Below, one piece after another: positions 18,330-20,264 of a stretch of 53,589 bases of DNA (within the stretch, counting starts at the first letter, position 1; the number at the start of each line of letters is the position of its first letter). The position numbers and the translations under genes are program-made. The DNA comes from Bacteroidia bacterium (GTDB lineage: Bacteria; Bacteroidota; Bacteroidia; B-17B0; Aurantibacillaceae), in contig JAIOZA010000021.1 of assembly GCA_021740825.1 (NCBI GenBank), forward strand, positions 1-53,589, given 5' to 3'. The notes under the pieces were generated by a model that was given only the letters and a program-made list of their open reading frames with translations, was not told the DNA's origin and did no database searches.

Positions 18330-20264
18330 ATGAAAACAATCACATCATTTGAACAATATAAGGCTGATTATAAAAAATCTATTGAAGATCCGGAAACATT
18401 TTGGACAGATATTGCCAATGATTTTTTGTGGAAACAAAAATGGACTAAAACGTTGGAGTGGAATTTTGATAGTCCAGAAGTAAAATGGTTTATAGATGGC
18501 AAGTTTAATATTACCGAAAACGCCATTGATAGGCATCTTGCAACCAAAGCTGACAAAACAGCTTTTATTTGGGAGGCAAATGATGAGAACCATTTACCAA
18601 GAAAAATAACGTATCAAAATTTACATGATGAAGTTTGTAAAATTGCCAATACGTTAAAATCCTTAGGAATTAATAAAGGAGATAGAGTTTGCATTTATAT
18701 GCCAATGATTCCCGAAGCTGTTTTTGCTATGTTGGCTTGTGCCAGAATTGGGGCTGTGCATTCTGTTGTTTTTGCAGGATTTTCAGCTTCAGCATTAGCT
18801 GGCCGTATTCAAGATAGCGATTGTAAAATTGTATTAACGACAGATGGTGCTTATCGGGGCGCAAAAGATATTGTCATTAAGGCATTAGTGGATGAAGCCT
18901 TAGAAATTTGTCCAAGTGTGCAAAAGGTATTAGTTTATAAACACACTCACTCGGCAATTAATATAATAGAAGGCAGAGATGTTATTTGGCAAGACGTTGT
19001 TCCTAATGCATTAAGTGTTTGCGAAGCAGAACTAATGGATAGTGAAGATGTGCTTTTCATTTTATACACTTCTGGCTCTACGGGTAAACCAAAAGGTGTT
19101 GTGCATACGTGCGGAGGATATATGGTTTATACTTGTTATACCTTTCAAAATGTGTTTCAGATGGATTCATCCGTGTCTTCTCTCCCTGAGGGAGAGATGC
19201 CGAAGGCAGAGAGGGAACTATTTTGGTGCACAGCAGATGTAGGTTGGATTACCGGGCATTCATACATTGCATACGGACCATTATTAGCTGGGGCAAGCTC
19301 TATTTTATTTGAAGGTGTTCCTACATTTCCGGATGCAGGACGTTTTTGGAAAGTGATTGATAAACATAAAGTAACTCATTTTTATACAGCACCAACAGCT
19401 ATCAGAGCGTTAGAAGCACAAGGATTAGATTTTGTAAAGCCGTATAAGTTAGATACTTTAAAAGTTTTAGGAAGCGTTGGAGAGCCAATTAATGAAGAAG
19501 CTTGGCAATGGTATCACAAAAATATTGGAAAAGAAAAATGTCCAATTGTTGATACATGGTGGCAAACGGAAACCGGTGGCATTTTAATTTCATCCCTAGC
19601 AGGTGTTACGCCATCAAAGCCAAGCTTTGCAACTTTGCCAATGCCTGGCATTCAGCCCTTACTAGTGGATGAAAAAGGAAATGAAATTTTAGGAAATAAT
19701 GTAGAAGGTAATTTATGTATTAAATTTCCATGGCCATCTATGATTCGTACAACTTATGGAGATCATAATCGCTGTAAGCAGGAATATTTTTCAACCTATA
19801 AAGGATTGTATTTTACAGGTGATGGCTGCCGAAGAGATGAAAATGGGTTTTATAGAATTACAGGACGTGTAGATGATGTGATGAATATTTCGGGACACCG
19901 CATAGGAACTGCAGAAGTTGAAAGCGCTATTAATATGCATATTGATGTTGTTGAAAGTGCAGTGGTTGGTTATCCTCACGACATTAAAGGGCAAGGTATT
20001 TATGCATTTGTGATTGTTCCATCCACAACAAAAAATCATGACAGTTTACGACAAGAGATTATTGCAGAGGTTAATAAGATTATTGGGCCCATTGCTAAAC
20101 CCGATAAAATACAAATTGTAACTGGCTTGCCTAAAACCCGTAGTGGTAAAATTATGCGACGGATTTTACGCAAAGTAGCTGAGGGAGACGTTAGTGATTT
20201 AGGGGATACTTCGACGCTACTTGATCCATCAGTAGTTGATGAAATTGTAAATGGAAAAATATAG
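18330..20264 (+). CDS. acs: Acetyl-CoA synthetase with an in-frame palindromic insertion
   Basis: A 644-residue AMP-forming acetate-CoA ligase. It has the P-loop-like YTSGSTGKPKGVVHT (residues 246-260), the acetate-pocket region WCTADVGWITGHSY, WWQTETGG, the hinge segment ITGRVDDVMNISGHR and the regulated C-terminal lysine in PKTRSGKIMRRILRK. Between VF276 and F298 it carries about 14 more residues than usual (here QMDSSVSSLPEGEMPKAEREL; related enzymes have about 7). The DNA for this stretch is the double hairpin at 19177-19217. The insertion is in frame, and the rest of the enzyme looks intact. The gene is monocistronic and ends convergently with the epimerase gene. Confidence 0.96.
   Translation: MKTITSFEQYKADYKKSIEDPETFWTDIANDFLWKQKWTKTLEWNFDSPEVKWFIDGKFNITENAIDRHLATKADKTAFIWEANDENHLPRKITYQNLHDEVCKIANTLKSLGINKGDRVCIYMPMIPEAVFAMLACARIGAVHSVVFAGFSASALAGRIQDSDCKIVLTTDGAYRGAKDIVIKALVDEALEICPSVQKVLVYKHTHSAINIIEGRDVIWQDVVPNALSVCEAELMDSEDVLFILYTSGSTGKPKGVVHTCGGYMVYTCYTFQNVFQMDSSVSSLPEGEMPKAERELFWCTADVGWITGHSYIAYGPLLAGASSILFEGVPTFPDAGRFWKVIDKHKVTHFYTAPTAIRALEAQGLDFVKPYKLDTLKVLGSVGEPINEEAWQWYHKNIGKEKCPIVDTWWQTETGGILISSLAGVTPSKPSFATLPMPGIQPLLVDEKGNEILGNNVEGNLCIKFPWPSMIRTTYGDHNRCKQEYFSTYKGLYFTGDGCRRDENGFYRITGRVDDVMNISGHRIGTAEVESAINMHIDVVESAVVGYPHDIKGQGIYAFVIVPSTTKNHDSLRQEIIAEVNKIIGPIAKPDKIQIVTGLPKTRSGKIMRRILRKVAEGDVSDLGDTSTLLDPSVVDEIVNGKI
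19177..19217 (+). repeat. Palindromic element inserted inside acs
   Basis: Two adjacent perfect hairpins: TCTCTCCC-TGA-GGGAGAGA (19179-19197) and TGCC-GAA-GGCA (19198-19208), followed by GAGAGGGAA (19209-19217). The element is more GC-rich than the gene around it and resembles dispersed intergenic repeats beginning with a CTCTCCC/GGGAGAG stem. It encodes the extra SSLPEGEMPKAERE segment of the protein. Confidence 0.75.

Follow-up and report, generated by a model that had tools for sequence, protein, structure and literature searches.

Homing nucleases are known from introns, from inteins and as free-standing genes, and databases may already show DUF559 domains within tRNA synthetases. Inteins place nuclease domains in frame within conserved proteins, as do the DUF559 inserts described here; unlike inteins, however, these inserts have hairpin-coded ends and, by eye, no intein-like junctions, and unlike the known homing nucleases they form part of a continuous host frame in which inspection by eye revealed no signal for splicing. 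Pfam reported no intein or Hint domain in any of 29 DUF559 frames. The part considered here of an account of the EDxHD homing endonucleases assigns a DUF559 gene to that family (PMC9403480), and the conserved active-site residues of such Vsr-like enzymes are present in the DUF559 copies analyzed below; the element in the window has no nuclease. In Caulobacter, the DUF559 protein VsrA is reported to cause an SOS response in cells without a cytosine methyltransferase (PMC12907096). A literature search by title and start of abstract, with most subscription journals outside its coverage, found nothing joining DUF559 with palindromes or in-frame inserts.

Short palindromic elements that insert in frame into unrelated genes and are translated have been described in Rickettsia; the portion of that account used here gives a length of about 150 bp and names no nuclease (PMC10969869), whereas the elements reported below measure about 30-40 bp, are linked to DUF559 and carry a mirror tail. 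Nematomorph mitochondria likewise hold inverted repeats in protein-coding genes, these coding palindromes being perfect and up to 284 bp long; the consulted part of that source concerns animal mitochondria and draws no link to a nuclease (PMC6649704). REP/RAYT systems and MITEs offer a further likeness in their short dispersed hairpins, terminal inverted repeats and non-autonomous copies, although the DUF559 nuclease is of another family than that of REP/RAYT.

The element considered here lies within the acetyl-CoA synthetase gene (acs) of a Bacteroidia bacterium, in a stretch of 53,589 nucleotides that was analyzed as a whole (the window). A preliminary description of this DNA had compared the element with the Rickettsia palindromic elements, a comparison that seems fair as far as it goes: the element is in frame in acs, and its core is dispersed in one other genome (G139), although its own genome has no further exact copies. 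That comparison leaves out the nuclease, because various hairpin elements have come to occupy the same turn of Acs time and again, in three cases together with a whole DUF559 domain, a situation that the preliminary description did not foresee.

Anatomy and coding of the acs element

The acs gene (18330-20264, forward strand) encodes 644 amino acids with the Pfam domains ACAS_N, AMP-binding and AMP-binding_C, the closest solved chain being that of Salmonella Acs (2p2f). Inside it are the two back-to-back perfect hairpins that had been described. The first (19179-19197) pairs TCTCTCCC (19179-19186) with GGGAGAGA (19190-19197) in an 8-bp stem closed by a TGA loop, and the second (19198-19208) is a linker, TGCC-GAA-GGCA, with a 4-bp stem and a GAA loop; comparable GAA-loop linkers adjoin DUF559 genes that stand free elsewhere in the genus. 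A third part had been overlooked: a tail, AGAGAGGG (19208-19215), that mirrors the arm GGGAGAGA and has base 19208 in common with the second hairpin. The complete unit (19179-19215) thus comprises 37 bases, TCTCTCCC-TGA-GGGAGAGA-TGCC-GAA-GGCA-GAGAGGG, with a GC content of 62% against 33% for the window. Allowing up to three mismatches, the window contains a single copy of this 37-mer, and no copy was present in any of 100 shuffles. A scan of the 53.6-kb window for a hairpin plus mirror tail returned a single site, the acs element itself; in shuffles of other stretches such sites arise at 1.2-5.4 per Mb.

As had been proposed, the acs reading frame remains open across the element. Five of the six possible frames through it are open, which is largely an effect of composition, as 42% of shuffles of its own letters reach five or more. 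RNA folding of the stretch revealed no unusual stability (z -0.75), and Rfam returned nothing at gathering score, with three sub-threshold matches of which the lowest E-value was 0.48. On these grounds, a reading of the element as an RNA structure was dropped.

The encoded segment (19179-19217) corresponds to Acs residues 284-296 and falls within 14 residues that form a gap-insert in the alignment to Salmonella Acs. Among same-genus relatives with Acs of the window's own type (n = 11), the window protein is longer by 10 residues than seven and by 7 than three, and the Acs of G006, where a variant of this element is present, equals it in length. In an AlphaFold2 model built from 27 sequences (mean pLDDT 79.7), residues 282-294 are predicted with low confidence (pLDDT <50) as coil between a helix at 261-275 and a strand at 297, consistent with the earlier placement of the element in a loop; other segments with pLDDT <50 are 248-253, 513-526 and 548-554. 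In 8 of 20 same-genus genomes (loci L015-L022), Acs is only 63-67% identical and groups with Chitinophagaceae-like Acs, which suggests that the gene has been replaced there.

Recurrent hairpin elements in one turn of acetyl-CoA synthetase

The window's genome (G000; 2.95 Mb in 58 contigs, 87.6% complete) and the genomes compared with it are draft assemblies, taken here as correct. The element had been taken for a dispersed palindromic repeat accepted as protein sequence, a reading that on the preliminary description's own terms would fail if the element occurred nowhere else in the genome, and a search of the 2.95 Mb in 58 contigs found no second exact copy. In that genome, recurrence is seen for the wider class of hairpin-mirror elements, of which a 400-kb sample contains five (none in reading frames; 1.2 per Mb in shuffles). 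Across genomes the core is dispersed: GAGATGCCGAAGGCAGAG occurs in 8 of 395 Bacteroidia genomes, with no reversed-control matches, as 12 copies in G139 (seven and five on the two strands) and as a single copy in the other seven, the window's included. It is in frame in HemF in two genomes (G135 and G203) and in a sugar-nucleotide enzyme in another (G217), in a reading frame other than the one used in acs; these hosts were identified by eye. Within the genus, 2 of 20 genomes contain the exact core, each time within acs, and a search at one mismatch gave one reversed-control match, in G007.

Hairpin elements occupy the turn before the Acs motif WCTADVGW in 11 of the Acs genes found. Eight of these are short (G000, G006, G075, G091, G132, G211, G241 and L066, the last on contig RDZG01000003.1 and one of 80 named loci), the element of G211 resembling the right end, and that of G241 the left end, of the common type. 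The other three contain a whole in-frame DUF559 domain. A protein search of 22 genomes revealed Acs split at the turn by about 145 in-frame residues in G173 and about 166 in G296; both inserts contain DUF559 domains (E 1.4e-34 and 2.5e-31, respectively) with hairpins on both sides, and the third, in G171, was found via a DUF559 search. All eleven inserts fall in one short turn, which, on these sequence comparisons, is a hot spot.

These numbers are affected by how the turns were sampled. Our pattern for lengthened turns demands M-V and no more than about 16 extra residues, and the resulting counts are lower bounds because larger inserts and other spellings escape it. It matches 6 of 87 family-level genomes (the order-level set is the same 87), three of them through hairpin elements (G000, G006 and G075); G011, with no palindrome, and G003 and G013, with other palindrome-like sequence, were set aside. 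At class level it matches 33 of 395 genomes, five through hairpin elements (G000, G091, G132, G211 and G241), and those set aside were 26 turns of normal length that matched through the M-V-H of PKGMVH, together with G235 and G459. On a tree of 66 Acs sequences (three loci without the motif were left out, and 66 of the remaining 119 were used), the 11 occupied genes require 10 changes under two-state coding and 11 under three-state coding, and the tree does not distinguish gain from loss at the site.

Several other turns deserve mention in their own right. The long Acs turns of G235 (L187) and G459 (L126), the latter viewed in part at the DNA level, have no visible hairpin and are possibly decayed elements. 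In G013 (L004) and G003 (L006) the turn holds GGCACGGAGGTTGAGC..AGTCGAAACC, which may resemble another palindromic repeat family. The apparently longer Acs of L104 was rejected, since by eye this locus reads as the end of another acs-like gene followed by an acs whose turn is of normal length.

DUF559 genes, their three-part ends and their host proteins

DUF559 (PF04480) was detected in at least 61 of 80 chosen genomes and at least 2 of 14 named controls. The loci fetched contained 109 distinct copies, 45 of which are embedded, defined for the end counts and the core-residue comparison as lying in a frame of 290 aa or more, and 64 free; because long frames were preferred in the choice of loci, this ratio is no estimate of the embedded share. 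Seven loci, six of them replaced by longer versions of themselves and the seventh L220 (the Acs DUF559 of G173, with no other copy in that set), were left out of this count, of the first-set end scan, of the mirror test and of the core-residue comparison; L220 was included in the DUF559 trees.

DUF559 copies are in general flanked by three-part ends of the kind found in acs. With both tail orientations taken, ends are present on both sides of 66 of the 109 copies and on one side of 30; the corresponding figures for both sides, one side and neither are 34, 10 and 1 for embedded copies and 32, 20 and 12 for free copies. Random places (n = 2,935, taken from the far flanks of DUF559 loci and from sampled stretches of G132 and G000) have ends on both sides in 3 cases, on one side in 103 and on neither in 2,829. 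A count restricted to outward tails gave 5, 9 and 27 of 41 copies for both sides, one side and neither. Tails mirror the arms of their own ends in particular: tail and arm agree at a mean of 5.68 of 8 positions over 111 ends, compared with 5.01 when ends were permuted (SD 0.07; highest of 500 permutations, 5.24), and for the same ends there was no clear excess in direct (5.06 versus 5.01) or reverse-complement (3.89 versus 3.90) matching. Among the DUF559 loci L201-L370, tails point mostly outward in embedded copies and most often inward in free ones, so that a single simple plan does not fit all elements.

The plan of the acs element matches that of ends within its own genus. In G001, a free DUF559 gene (L351) is flanked on each side by a hairpin, a GAA-loop linker hairpin and a mirror tail; in G006, the free DUF559 gene (L340) has such an end on one side. 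In the window's genome, the only DUF559 among the matches listed is a free-standing gene on contig C46, outside the embedded clade described below, for which the end scan found no end upstream. Downstream of this gene, at about 77183-77735 of C46 (L249, L294), is a pair of hairpin-mirror elements, oppositely oriented and with small hairpins as linkers.

Embedded DUF559 domains are found in 12 protein families. Pfam analysis of 29 long DUF559 frames identified host domains in 28, the exception being L237, which has DUF559 only. The hosts are LeuRS (9 frames), MetH (4), SpoIIE-type phosphatases (3), RecJ, RecG and MeaB-methylmalonyl-CoA mutase (2 each), and Acs, MutS, TsaD, a TsaB-like protein, urocanase and a pseudouridine synthase (1 each). 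One LeuRS frame (L238, G009:C294) carries a DUF559 domain with hairpin ends at each of two sites. Reading frames can also contain elements that lack DUF559: of ten such cases viewed in G132 and G211, eight were given to Pfam, and their hosts are Mfd, a menaquinone-biosynthesis protein, adenine deaminase, AtpG, HemD, a glycosyltransferase, a TPR protein and a transporter. In two G211 genes (L315 and L330), a left and a right end stand 17 and 15 bases apart, in frame and without DUF559. A 186-kb sample of G211 contains 14 elements (5.4 per Mb in shuffles), 9 of them in frames, two of which are overlapping calls of its acs element.

On a tree of 108 DUF559 sequences, 41 of the 45 embedded copies form one clade (SH-aLRT 98) that includes none of the 63 free copies, L261 being counted as free in this tree; the embedded copies outside it are L237, L247, L259 and L260. 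The DUF559 trees rest on about 103 columns. Host-site labels are clustered on a 69-row tree, requiring 24 changes against a shuffled mean of 42.3, and yet several lineages hold the Acs site (3 changes, 3 rows), LeuRS site 1 (7 changes, 13 rows) and a MetH site (4 changes, 4 rows). As judged from these trees, insertion sites are therefore both kept and exchanged among DUF559 lineages. The core residues D, E, D, H and D are invariant in all 45 embedded and all 23 free copies compared, and the nearest solved chain is that of an endonuclease-like protein (3hrl, E 1.7e-17).

Probable origin of the acs element and proposed movement of its class

The reading that we prefer, with a probability of about 0.7, is that the acs element, 37 bases long, represents a solo end that lacks the nuclease, from a class of mobile elements in Bacteroidota. 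In its complete form an element of this class has a DUF559 frame (PD-(D/E)XK, Vsr-like nucleases) flanked by inverted ends. Three parts make up an end: the pyrimidine/purine hairpin, the linker, which in some cases is a small hairpin too, and the mirrored copy of the hairpin's arm. One DUF559 lineage resides, translated, within housekeeping proteins, inserted in frame either at turns or between domains. The window scan finds hairpin, linker and mirror arm copy together in the acs element, which shares its insertion site with the full elements of G173, G296 and G171. As a single end without a DUF559 between inverted ends, it is classed as a derivative rather than a full member. Against this reading stand the single exact copy in the window's genome, the lack of an embedded DUF559 among the matches listed for that genome, and the DUF559 copies (12 free, 1 embedded) that have no end on either side.

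Movement would presumably be driven by DUF559, which might nick or cut an empty site so that repair copies the element in, in a homing-like manner; no target duplication was seen at the elements. The ends may be what is recognized or copied, and the solo and mini forms could arise from loss of the nuclease or from partial copying and may move in trans. Host frames would stay open because selection retains in-frame copies only.

A different account would make the hairpins a stand-alone REP- or MITE-like repeat, moved by a RAYT or other transposase, with DUF559 caught between repeats or carried as a passenger. The elements do outnumber the nuclease. In G132 a 399-kb sample contains 40 of them (100 per Mb, against 1.3 per Mb in shuffles; 8 within reading frames, including two in a MetH that bears DUF559), compared with at least 3 DUF559 matches genome-wide; the 12 copies of one core in G139 accompany at least 4 DUF559; and 7 of 68 copies in the first DUF559 set have no end. 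In Legionella, DNA that combines a transposase with DUF559 has been described, in the part of the source used here, as a hotspot of mutation (PMC12308824), which would favor a transposase as the mover. We nevertheless consider this account unlikely, as ends on both sides are common at DUF559 copies and very rare at random places, as the ends are inverted around DUF559, and as one DUF559 clade is confined to in-frame inserts.

It is also improbable that the segment is an ancient, vertically inherited Acs insert whose stems were kept by compensating changes for the sake of an RNA or DNA structure and which was lost many times. The comparison of G000 with G006 lends this idea some appeal: the two have the core of the second hairpin and the residues SVSS in common at one site, and their arms (CTCTCCC, GGGAGAG and GAGAGGG in G000; CTCCCC, GGGGAG and GAGGGG in G006) have changed together in all three places. 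On the Acs tree, however, the two are not sisters, the sister of G006 being G002, which is without the element, and the turns that lie between them are empty or different. Inserts of other lineages differ in sequence, occur in both orientations or carry DUF559, and the ordinary fold energy and the Rfam result noted above also argue against a conserved structure. Ordinary loop-length variation through slippage or low-complexity sequence, with palindromes arising by chance, is highly improbable even though G011 and G235 have a lengthened turn with no palindrome, given the shuffling result for the 37-mer, the recurrence of the core in other genes and genomes, and the joint change in three places between G000 and G006.

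The interpretation as a solo end can be set within a broader proposal, for and against which we see about equal odds: that Bacteroidota harbor non-splicing homing elements, in which a nuclease cassette, with hairpin-mirror ends as its borders, places copies of itself at conserved turns of LeuRS, MetH, MutS, RecJ, Acs and other proteins and leaves solo ends behind, the Acs segment in the window being one such leftover. If this is true, a selfish nuclease lineage would persist in core proteins by being read through rather than by splicing out, and it would be a source for in-frame inserts that are otherwise unexplained. The proposal further points to a possible role for DUF559, whose Pfam title is still that of a family of unknown function, and for hairpin repeats that reach, in one sampled genome (G132), about 100 per Mb.
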